Origin: Flavobacteriaceae bacterium
Lineage (GTDB): Bacteria > Bacteroidota > Bacteroidia > Flavobacteriales > Flavobacteriaceae
Assembly: GCA_017852395.1 (NCBI GenBank)
Contig: JAFMLE010000010.1
Span: forward strand, 1 to 64,000
Length of the DNA: 64,000 bases
Direction of reading: 5' to 3'
The stretch's first letter is position 1; each line of letters opens with the position of its first letter. Below the pieces are notes generated by a model. The model did not search any database and was not told the DNA's origin. It was given only the letters and a program-made list of their open reading frames with translations. Made by a program: the position numbers and the translations under genes. This document shows positions 4,918 through 9,939 of this stretch, piece after piece.

Positions 4918-5253
4918 TTGAAATCGTTTATTTGCCTTTTATGTATCTTCTTAATGAATTCTCCCATCATGGGGGCTTGGGTTCTACCGACTAAAAATAA
5001 TCAAAATTTAACTTTTGAGATACTTGACAAACCGCAAATTGTCTATCAAAACAATGTGTTGTTTATTTATGGTCTCAACGGAATTGGATCGGTTGAAGTT
5101 TTTTCACTGATTGGAAATAAAGTCGGTCACTTTAACAACGTGAACCTTCGAGAAGCTGCTTTAGAGCTTTCATTGGTCAAAAACAATCTCTATATCATCC
5201 GAATCGTAATGGACGACGGAAGTGTCAAAACCTTTAAGATTAGAGCCTCCTAA
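4918..5253 (+). CDS. Small secreted protein resembling a lone T9SS C-terminal sorting domain
   Basis: This 111-residue protein has a signal peptide (cleavage near IMGAW) followed by about 85 residues. Their tail resembles the Por-secretion (type A) C-terminal domain: VEVFSLIGNKVG, then a Leu-rich turn, NLYIIRIVMDDG, and a final strand with KTFKIRAS. In such domains a YxxxGK strand, a GxYxxR/K strand and a terminal basic motif are typical. Here there is almost no cargo in front. The start is TTG at 4918; no in-frame ATG lies upstream. It is divergent from the SurA-associated gene and convergent with guaB, six bases away. It could be a decoy, a self-anchored surface peptide or a decayed T9SS substrate. 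Confidence 0.65.
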   Translation: MKSFICLLCIFLMNSPIMGAWVLPTKNNQNLTFEILDKPQIVYQNNVLFIYGLNGIGSVEVFSLIGNKVGHFNNVNLREAALELSLVKNNLYIIRIVMDDGSVKTFKIRAS

Positions 5254-5259
5254 CTTCGA

Positions 5260-6758
<1,499 letters not shown>

Positions 6759-6783: not shown

Positions 6784-7281
6784 CTATTTGCGCCACCAAA
6801 TTTCATAGCAAACAACCGCAACGCCCAAAACATAGGCGAGTGTCATCAAAACTCCAGAAAGGGCGACCACGTAAGTCCAGAATAAACTTCCAAGCCAAAC
6901 ACCCAATAAGCCCCCAAAGGTCAATAAAATCGAAACAAAAGGTTCTATTGTCAAAACGGCCTTTAACCATATGGGTGCCTGGGTTTGCCAAATCAAGAGT
7001 CCTAACAGGAAAAAAATAAAACCAATCGACAATACATGGGTATGAATGATGGTAAGCATTTCACGACTGCTTTTTTCAAATTTTAAAACCGTTGCATTAG
7101 GATCATTTTCGTTGCCTTGGTAATTTTCGGCAATCCCCTTGGGGGATGTACTATCGGTTTGAGCCACAAAAGCCAGACCTGTAAAATAACCAACACTTAG
7201 AATGAGCAAAAAAGCAGTTAGAAATATCTTTATCTCCTTGCTTAATGTTGACAAAAAGAGGTTTTTAATCAGACGACTCAT
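6784..7281 (-). CDS. Membrane protein with four helices, partner of FMN-binding protein
   Basis: The 165-residue product has hydrophobic segments at about 18-38, 76-97, 103-128 and 131-160, with a soluble loop of about 35 residues after the first. The second helix begins with HTHVLSIGF, and two closely spaced histidines at a membrane face could be haem or quinone-site ligands. The start overlaps the end of the FMN-binding gene by 17 bases, so the two are translationally coupled. I do not recognise the family. The context suggests a membrane redox partner that passes electrons to or from the flavin protein. Confidence 0.72.
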   Translation of the reverse strand: MSRLIKNLFLSTLSKEIKIFLTAFLLILSVGYFTGLAFVAQTDSTSPKGIAENYQGNENDPNATVLKFEKSSREMLTIIHTHVLSIGFIFFLLGLLIWQTQAPIWLKAVLTIEPFVSILLTFGGLLGVWLGSLFWTYVVALSGVLMTLAYVLGVAVVCYEIWWRK

Positions 7282-7816
7282 GAAGTATATTTTGGTTTTT
7301 TAAAAACGAAAATACCACATTGACTGATTGGGTCATCGAGCGGACAGAGATTGTTGCACCAGAAATTCCGCTAACACTTTCTCCAACTTGAAACTGCGTA
7401 TTTAGAGGCTTTTCATAAAATTGAGACAGCCAACGTTTGCTAGAAATTTCTCCCCCATAATCTTCGCGGTAAATCAAGATTTTGGCTTTTATCAAGACAA
7501 AATTTTGATCCAGTATCAAGAGATAATCAAACGTATCTGTTCGACTAGGGGCCACCCCATAAAAAGCATACCCCAAAGACTTTGAGTTGTCCATGATCTC
7601 AAATAAACGCCCTTGTACCAAAAATGGGGATTTGATTTGAGTTTCGGGGGCGTCTATCCGTGTTTCTAAAACAAAATCTGAGGAATCATAAAATTTTGAG
7701 ACTTCTTTTTCTATTTTTTTAATGATATGTGCTGGCAAATCGGACGCATTTTCATCAACACCAAAACGCTCCTTTAAGGGTAACATAAATAAGATCAACC
7801 ATACAATCCGCATCAT
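7265..7816 (-). CDS. FMN-binding domain protein with SGAT flavinylation motif
   Basis: This 183-residue protein begins with a short hydrophobic segment and contains an FMN_bind domain ending in SGAT at residues 152-155. In NqrC- and RnfG-like proteins this motif carries covalently bound FMN added by ApbE. No ApbE is in the window. It sits between a porin gene (18 bases upstream) and a four-helix membrane protein that overlaps its end. Flavinylated proteins of this kind take part in electron transfer outside the cytoplasm. The substrate or acceptor is unknown. Confidence 0.82.
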   Translation of the reverse strand: MMRIVWLILFMLPLKERFGVDENASDLPAHIIKKIEKEVSKFYDSSDFVLETRIDAPETQIKSPFLVQGRLFEIMDNSKSLGYAFYGVAPSRTDTFDYLLILDQNFVLIKAKILIYREDYGGEISSKRWLSQFYEKPLNTQFQVGESVSGISGATISVRSMTQSVNVVFSFLKNQNILHESSD

Positions 7817-7834
7817 TTTGTTGTTTTTAAAAAT

Positions 7835-9007
7835 TTAGAACCATACTCCAAGTCCTACATTAAACTGATTTTGTTTTTGATTTCCTGCAGTTGCTTTGTT
7901 TTGATAATCTACTTTAAAAACCGTCCCTTGTGAGAGGTGATAGCTCCAACCGAAGGTCCATTCTTTCCGATGAAAATTTGGATTTGGAGACAATGCTCCT
8001 GCCACAGCGTCATGCGTGTTGAAATTTTCATACCTAAGAAAAGTCACTAAACGCTGGCGATTGACCAGTGGCAATACGTTATAGGCAATTTCTGTGTAAT
8101 ACCCTTTTAGCGCACTTCCCAAATCACTGCCTGTTTGTTGGTTATACACTGCAGTATCGGAAAGGTTCGCATAAATCCATTGACCACGAGCAGCCCATTT
8201 ACGATGATTGTACCTAAAATCGGCACCGATCATAGAAACACCGATTATTGTTCCCAATTCTGGTGCTTCTTCTACCGCTTGGGTCTTACCAAAATATCCC
8301 GATAGCCCCAATCGAAGTCCGGGGACCCCATAGTAATCAAATTTGGCAGAATAATTTATGTGATCCAAAGTAGATTGGGCGCCTTTTTGTCGTCCGCCTC
8401 GCAATCCACTGCTACCGCTCAAAGTACCCTTTGAACCATCATAGGACAAAAAACCATTGAAAAGATATGCTTGGTAGCGCATCGACCACGCATCAATACG
8501 ACCAGCGACCCCCAATCCCATTTCTCTCCATGTGGTCGGTACCAGCTTATTGTCCAAACTTGGACGCTCTACACCGTTGAAGGTGGTGGGTTCATGATAT
8601 TCATTGATAATCCCCATGGGAACCAGCATCAAACCACCGCGGATATTTAAACCGTTGGACACCGCATAATTGACAAATGCTTGCTCCACATAGACTTCTT
8701 TGACATGTTCGTACTCAATTTCTGTAACAAATTGAACACGTTCATCAAACTTATACCCAAATAATAATACCAAACGCTGAATGTCCATCTCACCATCTTC
8801 CTTCGTTGGCTGATTGTAGGTGGCCTCTGCATAGCCACCCAAAGTAACCCCGGCAGGGATGCCTTGTAGGTTTTGTAAAATTCTTTGATAACCGTTGATT
8901 TGCAATTGTATGCTATCTGATAAGGTGGTGTAGGGCGTATTAGAAGTTTGTGCATTTAGGTTAAAAGTGAGAAATAACAGTGCGATTGCAGGGGCTAATT
9001 TTTGCAT
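7835..9007 (-). CDS. Porin-like outer-membrane protein (phosphate-selective porin O/P type)
   Basis: The 390-residue product has a signal peptide (MQKLAPAIALLFLTFNLNAQ) and a run of alternating amphipathic strands rich in Tyr, Trp and Gly. It ends in the aromatic NVGLGVWF, a typical last barrel strand. A short region after the signal could form a coiled coil (IQLQINGYQRI). It resembles the OprO/OprP-like porins of Bacteroidetes. It is the first gene of an operon with the FMN-binding and four-helix membrane proteins and has a strong promoter at 9037-9067. The transported solute is unknown. Confidence 0.82.
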   Translation of the reverse strand: MQKLAPAIALLFLTFNLNAQTSNTPYTTLSDSIQLQINGYQRILQNLQGIPAGVTLGGYAEATYNQPTKEDGEMDIQRLVLLFGYKFDERVQFVTEIEYEHVKEVYVEQAFVNYAVSNGLNIRGGLMLVPMGIINEYHEPTTFNGVERPSLDNKLVPTTWREMGLGVAGRIDAWSMRYQAYLFNGFLSYDGSKGTLSGSSGLRGGRQKGAQSTLDHINYSAKFDYYGVPGLRLGLSGYFGKTQAVEEAPELGTIIGVSMIGADFRYNHRKWAARGQWIYANLSDTAVYNQQTGSDLGSALKGYYTEIAYNVLPLVNRQRLVTFLRYENFNTHDAVAGALSPNPNFHRKEWTFGWSYHLSQGTVFKVDYQNKATAGNQKQNQFNVGLGVWF

Positions 9008-9036
9008 TTATTTAGATTTAATAAAAATTATATTTG

Positions 9037-9067
9037 CAAATATATGTCGCCTAATTATTTTACCAAA
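9037..9067 (-). promoter_or_regulatory. Promoter of the porin-FMN-membrane operon
   Basis: Reading the minus strand, TTTG at 9064-9067 is followed after 19 bp by TATATTTG at 9037-9044, the textbook Bacteroidetes arrangement. Transcription should start near 9030, giving a leader of about 23 bases. The -7 box is half of a 16-bp perfect palindrome, TATATTTGCAAATATA, at 9029-9044. Confidence 0.7.
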
Positions 9068-9084
9068 AATTATTTAGATTTATT

Positions 9085-9939
9085 TTAAATAAAGATTTTA
9101 TGGGATTGATTATATGCAATTTCAAAATGCAAGGGATGGATTCCTGTAGTGCGTTTTTGGGCTAAAAAATAAGAAATCAACTTTTCTGTGGGCATATTGC
9201 CAACCAACTCATCTTTGGCCATTGGACATCCACCATGCCCTTTGATAGCACCATCAAAACGAGTACAACCAGCGATAAAAGCAGCATTTACCTTATCATA
9301 CCATGCGTCATAGAGCGTGTGAAAATGTGCGCCAAACACAATGTCAGGATATCGTGAAATAAGTTTTGAAAAAACCGCTCCAATAGCTTCTGGAGTAGCA
9401 CTACCAATGGTGTCTGAAAGAGAGATGACTGCCAAATTTAATTTGGACAAACGATCGACCCATTCTTCTACAATTTCGGGGCTCCACGGATCTCCATATG
9501 GATTGCCAAAACCCATAGACAAATAGACAATCAATTTTTTGTTATTTGAAATTGCATGGTCATGAATTTGTTCTAGCACTTCAAAAGACGTAGCTATGGT
9601 CTTGTGCGTATTACGCATTTGAAAATTTTCTGAAATCGAAAATGGAAACCCCAAATAATCGACCTTAGAAAAGGTACATGCTTCTTCTGCCCCTCTAAGG
9701 TTGGCTACAATAACCGAAATTTTGGTCGAAGTCTCCCCGAGGTCCAAACCCTCAATTACTTTGGCCGTATCAGCCATTTGAGGGATTGCCTTAGGCGAAA
9801 CAAAACTGCCACAATCAAGCGTATGAAAACCTACTTTTAATAATTGTTGCAAATAATTGATTTTGTCGGCTGTAGGAATCCATTTTTTGATGCCTTGCAT
9901 GGCATCTCTGGGGCACTCGATAATTTGTATGGGCTTCAC
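9085..9939 (-). CDS. Hydroxymethylglutaryl-CoA lyase
   Basis: This enzyme cleaves HMG-CoA to acetyl-CoA and acetoacetate at the end of leucine breakdown. The 284-residue TIM-barrel protein has the N-terminal ECPRDAMQG segment with the catalytic Asp, the metal-binding GAHFHT pair of histidines, and GGCPMA near residue 238, where Cys is the active-site residue of the GGCPxA signature. The length is typical. The start appears to be GTG at 9939, since no ATG gives a full N terminus. It follows the LysE-type gene by nine bases. Confidence 0.88.
   Translation of the reverse strand: MKPIQIIECPRDAMQGIKKWIPTADKINYLQQLLKVGFHTLDCGSFVSPKAIPQMADTAKVIEGLDLGETSTKISVIVANLRGAEEACTFSKVDYLGFPFSISENFQMRNTHKTIATSFEVLEQIHDHAISNNKKLIVYLSMGFGNPYGDPWSPEIVEEWVDRLSKLNLAVISLSDTIGSATPEAIGAVFSKLISRYPDIVFGAHFHTLYDAWYDKVNAAFIAGCTRFDGAIKGHGGCPMAKDELVGNMPTEKLISYFLAQKRTTGIHPLHFEIAYNQSHKIFI

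Follow-up and report, generated by a model that had tools for sequence, protein, structure and literature searches.

Three adjacent genes of a flavobacterial genome, coding for an outer-membrane porin, a protein with a flavin-binding (FMN_bind) domain and a small four-helix membrane protein (TM4), probably form an operon which Fur represses and which serves the assimilatory reduction of iron. They lie in a stretch of 64,000 nucleotides from a member of the Flavobacteriaceae (assembly GCA_017852395.1, contig JAFMLE010000010.1), which is called the window here. An iron role of this cassette is well supported by gene content, linkage, operators and the iron-gene neighbours found in relatives; ferric reduction, the participation of quinol and any cofactor of TM4 are what we infer beyond this. 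The initial annotation had proposed a module that passes electrons to "an outside acceptor or solute". As a whole this interpretation is partly supported, and its acceptor or solute can now be narrowed to iron by two features that the initial annotation had not noted, the Fur-type operators and the Feo, Fur and ferritin genes linked to the cassette in relatives.

Architecture of the Operon

All three ORFs which the initial annotation had described as linked (a porin, a periplasmic FMN_bind protein and a membrane protein) are present in the ORF list on the minus strand, running from 9007 to 6784 of the window in the order porin, FMN_bind, TM4; the latter two share an overlap of 17 nt. Coordinates are given in Table 1. 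Elsewhere in the window, at 242–2519, genes resembling a MerR-type regulator, phytoene synthase and carotenoid hydroxylase were recognized by eye.

Table 1. Features of the porin-FMN_bind-TM4 operon (window positions).
Feature	Position	Strand	Remarks and basis
Fur-type operator 1	9070..9092	-	palindrome TTATTTAAAATAAATCTAAATAA; 0 mismatches; pattern scan of genome
-33 element, putative promoter	9064..9067	-	TTTG; by eye; pattern in relatives
-7 element, putative promoter	9037..9044	-	TATATTTG (TAnnTTTG); by eye; pattern in relatives
Fur-type operator 2	9008..9030	-	2 mismatches; abuts porin start codon (9007)
Porin gene	7835..9007	-	390 aa; first gene of operon; ORF
FMN_bind gene, RnfG/NqrC type	7265..7816	-	183 aa; ORF, PF04205 and profile
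SGAT motif	7352..7363	-	FMN_bind residues 152–155; T155 is the expected FMN-attachment site
TM4 gene	6784..7281	-	165 aa; four-helix inner-membrane protein without known family; model
HTH codons of TM4	7036..7044	-	H80 and H82 (HxH); close to predicted periplasmic end of helix 2

Conservation and Distribution

The window's family was represented by 120 genomes, of which 43, the window's own among them, contained TM4; in the phylum it was detected in 41 of 395. Neighbourhoods were compared at 40 family loci, i.e., those of the 43 positive genomes without the window itself (G000), a gene at a contig end (G062) and a reading frame broken by stops (G099). The FMN gene was adjacent at all 40 loci and the porin gene at 37, in the same order. 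Linkage within the family alone would not prove a coupling, since the flanking genes are conserved there too (IMPDH at 38 loci, an HMGL-like gene at 34), which is what a mere inheritance of the neighbourhood, with no functional coupling of the genes, would predict. We consider such inheritance extremely improbable, given that outside the family (loci L104–L139) the order porin-FMN-TM4 was kept at 32 of 36 loci, with different flanking genes. The three-gene order, whose search in other genomes the initial annotation had suggested and whose restriction to close relatives would have refuted it, thus recurs beyond the family, elsewhere in the phylum. The exceptions were L104, where DUF6607 replaces the porin, L134 and L137 with another order, and L138, a weak and lone TM4 match.

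Within the family the three proteins also co-diverge, with distance correlations of 0.65–0.75 over 36 sets (values reached by none of 2000 permutations), as would be expected from shared ancestry alone too. A search of the named collection yielded 27 loci from Bacteroidetes, Ignavibacteria(les)/Melioribacteraceae, Rhodothermales, Fodinibius/Aliifodinibius and one record designated "bacterium"; the distribution may be wider, since the query was one short peptide. Eleven of these 27 loci duplicate contigs of L104–L142, so that 106 loci correspond to 95 distinct ones.

Two variations of the gene set were seen in passing: a decayed copy of TM4 with several stop codons (L073, G099:C2:464036-464504), and a small gene following the FMN gene in the variants with changed order (L134:6947-7342 and L137:5285-5854), which in L134 contains CxxCH.

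Fur-Type Operators and Promoter

In the region 5' of the porin gene, a putative promoter of flavobacterial type, recognized by eye, is flanked by a palindrome on either side. Operator 1 was the sole site with 0 mismatches to its pattern in the genome of 1.75 Mb; when up to two mismatches were allowed, 11 sites were found genome-wide, versus 2 for a reversed control pattern. For Riemerella anatipestifer, a Fur box 5'-ATTTAGAATTATTCTAAAT-3' has been described, and Fur shifted four promoter fragments in EMSA (PMC5609570); compared by eye, the window operator departs from this box at 2 of its 19 positions. In a subsequent paper the E. coli consensus is quoted for R. anatipestifer instead (PMC7976709), and the flavobacterial one is used in PMC10986502. 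The operators fit the flavobacterial Fur box and, by their sequence, make the operon a putative member of the Fur regulon; one Fur protein is encoded in the genome (E 6.2e-25).

In the family the box (up to two mismatches) was found in all 35 porin upstream regions versus 4 of 342 upstream regions of other genes at these loci, and in 5 of 39 upstream regions of FMN genes and 0 of 40 of TM4 genes. The porin count covers upstream regions of at least 200 bp; shorter ones (L038, L057) and loci with no detected porin (L047, contig edge; L060, degraded; L071, DUF6607) were left out. Two boxes occurred in 32 of the 36 porin upstream regions, the window included, at a distance of 72 or 73 bp in 20 of these 32, and the -33/-7 promoter pattern stood between the boxes in 28 of the 32.

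Outside the family, 21 of 33 porin upstream regions contained the box versus 15 of 342 others, several of these 15 belonging to neighbours that run divergently or to the gene which opens the cluster itself. The remaining 12 had no box by the pattern used, and in five of them (L107, L111, L117, L112, L116) a box or weak box was present at the leading gene of the operon, upstream of the porin. In operons that begin with a gene other than the porin, the box is usually found at this leading gene: it precedes a substrate-binding protein in L108, L111 and L117 (L108 keeping one at the porin too), fur in L107, and DUF6607 in L104 and in the family locus L071. Weak boxes with 4 mismatches were seen before apbE in L112 and L116, and with 3 mismatches before fur in L133. 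In L135 and L136, neither the porin nor the leading gene had a box.

The operators bear on the purpose of the electron flow. Porin and flavin could serve a respiratory extracellular electron transfer, reducing an outside acceptor, e.g., Fe(III) minerals, for energy; the logic of the parts is that of known flavin-based systems, and homologues occur in loci of Ignavibacteriales and Melioribacter. Repression by Fur, however, fits uptake and not respiration, feoAB stand under the same box, and no gene for a multiheme cytochrome happened to be noticed next to the cassette. Dissimilatory reduction was set back as the main reading because of the Fur-type operators and appears very unlikely to us, whereas assimilation is favoured since the operon would, by its operators, be regulated by iron.

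Linkage to Iron Genes

At locus L068 the cassette continues as porin-FMN-TM4-feoA-feoB, with feoA (recognized by eye, without NCBIfam match) beginning 3 bp past TM4 and feoB matching TIGR00437 at E 1.2e-149. Locus L107 has the order fur-feoA-feoB-porin-FMN-TM4-apbE (Pfam), feoB precedes and apbE follows the cassette in L135 and L136, fur stands ahead of it with one gene between in L133, and ferritin was found within 4.1 kb in 7 loci. The box itself recurs ahead of the FeoB_N domain, at a distance of about 250 bp, in all but one (G113) of 8 relatives that were scanned and, with one mismatch, before the FeoB_N domain in the window's own genome.

FeoB (E < 1e-40) was present in all 43 family genomes with TM4 and in 66 of 77 without it, a difference (Fisher p 0.006) that makes a weak test, since kinship and completeness are uncontrolled; several genomes lacking FeoB are small or incomplete. 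Feo does not need TM4, since 77 of the 120 family genomes are without TM4 and 66 of these have FeoB.

An iron-sparing role would account for part of these results. When iron is short, a flavin carrier, derepressed by Fur, could replace heme or Fe-S carriers, with oxygen or another oxidant as acceptor; control of the Fur type would be equally expected, and it has been suggested that flavinylation is advantageous where iron is poor because it saves iron (PMC8238504). Such a role leaves the outer-membrane porin and the operon fusion with feoA-feoB and fur unexplained, and we consider it unlikely, though worth bearing in mind.

Genes for substrate-binding proteins (SBP) occur at L108, L111, L117, L198 and L201, the last of which, in Fodinibius sediminis DSM 21194, has the order SBP-porin-FMN-TM4-apbE. 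The one at L111 was scanned and matched only general families of such proteins in Pfam. An assignment as Fe(III)-binding protein was rejected; its best NCBIfam models, all below cut-off, were of the phosphonate and thiamine types.

The FMN_bind Protein

The FMN_bind protein matched Pfam PF04205 with E 1.6e-4 and 22.7 bits, narrowly above the cut-off of 22. The assignment of the domain is firm, since a profile from 25 homologues reached chains of RnfG (E 1.6e-14) and NqrC among PDB sequences. The SGAT motif, noted already in the initial annotation, is confirmed at residues 152–155, and its threonine is invariant in 25 of 25 homologues across the phylum as well as in all 40 sequences of the family alignment. 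By its hydrophobic N-terminus, recognized by eye, the protein is probably exported across the inner membrane.

ApbE, which was to be looked for in this genome and whose absence would have refuted the initial annotation, is encoded by one gene (E 1.3e-80, C2:53066), located directly behind nqrABCDEF (order by eye on translations); there are two FMN_bind genes, i.e., nqrC of that cluster and the cassette's own. An apbE gene was found in or beside the cassette at 25 of 95 distinct loci. Its identity was confirmed by Pfam at L113, L107 and L133, and the candidate at L048 matched the NCBIfam ApbE model at E 2e-40, yet below its cut-off. The invariant SGAT, the ApbE in the genome and the apbE genes at the cassette lend support to the earlier suggestion that the protein is flavinylated and takes part in an extracytosolic electron transfer.

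The Membrane Protein TM4

The model of TM4 (pLDDT 89.9) contains helices at residues 15–42, 72–98, 104–129 and 134–163. The HTH described earlier at the start of a helix does lie there, eight to ten residues inside helix 2. H80 and H82, as well as G56, were invariant in 41 of 41 family relatives and in 33 of 33 sequences across the phylum; E113 and P114 did not vary among the family sequences and were retained in 90% or more of those from the phylum.

Searches of Pfam returned no family above cut-off for TM4 of the window and scattered weak matches for TM4 elsewhere. Its best match was DUF2871 with 18.9 bits versus a cut-off of 27.4, and weak matches to DUF2871 were obtained for 12 of 41 members (E ≤ 10). 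An identification as DUF2871 was rejected, the window protein being below the cut-off; 14 control genomes yielded no DUF2871 match above it that could have served for comparison. The families of known flavinylation partners (NapH-, MsrQ- and PepSY-like, DsbD, NQR/RNF-like, DUF4405) gave no match in Pfam for TM4 of the window (E ≤ 1), none for 33 TM4 members (E ≤ 0.1), and none among the matches listed, which covered 25 of 34 families, for 41 members (E ≤ 10). Comparison of the model with the PDB by Foldseek found nothing at E ≤ 0.001; with VIA-align 2, Z values up to 8.6 were obtained, about 7 for cytochrome oxidase subunit I, a level that the program describes as common among helical bundles. 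No relevant relative emerged when PDB sequences were searched with profiles. When the TM4 profile was aligned with 26 sequences of heme-copper oxidase subunit I (hhalign), HTH came to lie opposite the HxH of helix X, and this likeness is kept as a motif resemblance only, because the hhalign probability was 0.8%.

The HxH pair contains the only conserved histidines of TM4, both of them on one helix. In MsrQ, PepSY and DUF4405 proteins a classical pair of histidine ligands is provided by two helices; since both histidines of TM4 are on the same helix, such a pair would be absent unless the protein forms a dimer.

The Porin

No Pfam or NCBIfam family was found for the porin. Its model, with a pLDDT of only 76, has 16 strands of at least 4 residues and resembles general porins (best Foldseek E 2.2e-13). 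An alignment of 34 sequences showed N135, E136, H138 and E139 to be invariant in the loop after the fifth strand; conserved acidic residues are, besides E136 and E139 of this loop, E96, E98, E100, E104 and E108. It is a guess, from a model of medium quality, that these residues would suit a path for cations.

The porin is not always needed, since at L060 it is degraded to a remnant (about 5115–6011, by eye) ahead of intact FMN and TM4 genes. This remnant and the replacement of the porin by DUF6607 and TonB receptors suggest that the FMN protein and TM4 form the core, with an exchangeable part in the outer membrane. The latter loci raise the question whether iron could be released reductively from heme or siderophores which TonB receptors import, the porin merely draining Fe(II) or ligand. 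Both L071 and L104 have DUF6607 in the position of the porin and a TonB receptor nearby, and at L243 DUF6607 is followed by a paralogue of the FMN gene, a TonB receptor in divergent orientation and a box being present as well. The main form of the cassette, however, begins with the porin gene, and TonB receptors of the type used as query stood beside only 5 of 106 loci (duplicates included); a release from heme or siderophores seems quite unlikely.

Proposed Pathway

Assimilatory reduction, our preferred reading, could proceed as follows. When iron is scarce, Fur would leave both operators and the three genes would be expressed. TM4 would take up electrons in the cytoplasmic membrane, with quinol as the most likely donor, and on the periplasmic side these would pass to FMN, bound to T155 by the action of ApbE. 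The reduced flavin might then convert Fe(III) or small Fe(III) chelates, for which the porin would be the entry route (inorganic iron or small chelates), to Fe(II) in the periplasm, and Fe(II) would be imported by FeoB. The direction of electron flow, the quinol donor, the Fe(III) acceptor and iron as cargo of the porin are presumed in this scheme. Against this reading are the porin upstream regions outside the family that lack a box, including those of L135 and L136, the degraded porin of L060, the family genomes with FeoB but no TM4, and the location of the histidine pair of TM4 on a single helix.

Cyanobacteria possess a porin-based uptake of inorganic iron, in which entry independent of TonB is combined with reduction before transport across the inner membrane, in outline as proposed here. 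We know of no flavinylated protein in the cyanobacterial process.

Since oxygenated water poor in iron contains little ferrous iron, it is not evident how flavobacteria living there find Fe(II) for FeoB. If the proposed pathway is true, a small envelope reductase under Fur control would explain the supply of Fe(II) for FeoB in those lineages which have the cassette. The cassette could also serve as a marker of reductive iron uptake in marine metagenomes and transcriptomes, where annotation based on Pfam leaves TM4 unnamed, and a class of membrane proteins would be added to the published partners of flavinylated proteins.

Comparison with Known Systems

Meheust et al. (2021, eLife 10:e66878; PMC8238504) tied flavinylation to iron transporters and described clusters with PepSY-like, MsrQ-like and P19/FTR1 proteins; the partner classes given there are NapH-, MsrQ-, PepSY-, DsbD- and NQR/RNF-like. 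What the cassette has in common with those clusters is ApbE together with a flavinylated protein outside the cytosol and a partner in the membrane, beside iron genes; some of the clusters are Fur-repressed. It differs in that TM4 belongs by Pfam to none of the five classes and that the cassette has a built-in general porin and a link to FeoAB. The main text of that paper does not mention porin, FeoB or terms beginning with bacteroid- or flavobacter-.

DUF4405 proteins and FezC are cytochromes associated with flavinylation and ferrosomes (mSystems 2024, PMC11334425). Like TM4, they are helical membrane proteins with conserved histidines, proposed as electron carriers to flavinylated proteins, and FezC works as a homodimer. 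DUF4405 has six helices and four central histidines, in contrast to the four helices and one HxH of TM4, and there was no Pfam match between the two. RnfG and NqrC share with the FMN_bind protein the domain and an SGAT-type motif, which in RnfG and NqrC carries covalent FMN on threonine; the operon of the cassette, however, is without RnfABCDE or NqrABDEF partners, and nqrABCDEF with its own NqrC is separate in the genome.

A published description of a porin, an FMN_bind and a four-helix protein near Feo was not found in the material covered, i.e., titles and the beginnings of abstracts. Flavinylation-linked iron assimilation has been published already, whereas the TM4 class, the coupling to a porin and the linkage to Feo were not found in the accessible literature. 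TM4 might represent a new class of transmembrane electron carriers for flavinylated proteins, perhaps a quinol oxidase of minimal size, with four helices, in which the invariant HxH (similar to the HxH in helix X of heme-copper oxidases by motif only) would bind heme or form a quinol site. With porin and FeoB it would then constitute a ferric reductase pathway that needs no siderophores and is widely distributed among Bacteroidetes and Ignavibacteria. We put this forward tentatively, as a possibility that falls somewhat short of probable.

Other Fur-Type Boxes

The FMN_bind paralogue after DUF6607, with a Fur-type box between it and a divergent TonB receptor, occurs at L243:3056-4511 and L036:56-1511, with no TM4 found near the paralogue, and is possibly a second flavinylated iron system. 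In the window's own genome (L146, G000:C3:90359) and in G101 (L168), a Fur-type box lies between genes which by eye resemble an AraC-like regulator and a divergent glutamyl-tRNA reductase; a role of this regulator in iron and heme regulation is possible. Another box, with one mismatch, separates a gene whose product contains CxxCH from a small gene in divergent orientation (L144, G000:C3:131010).
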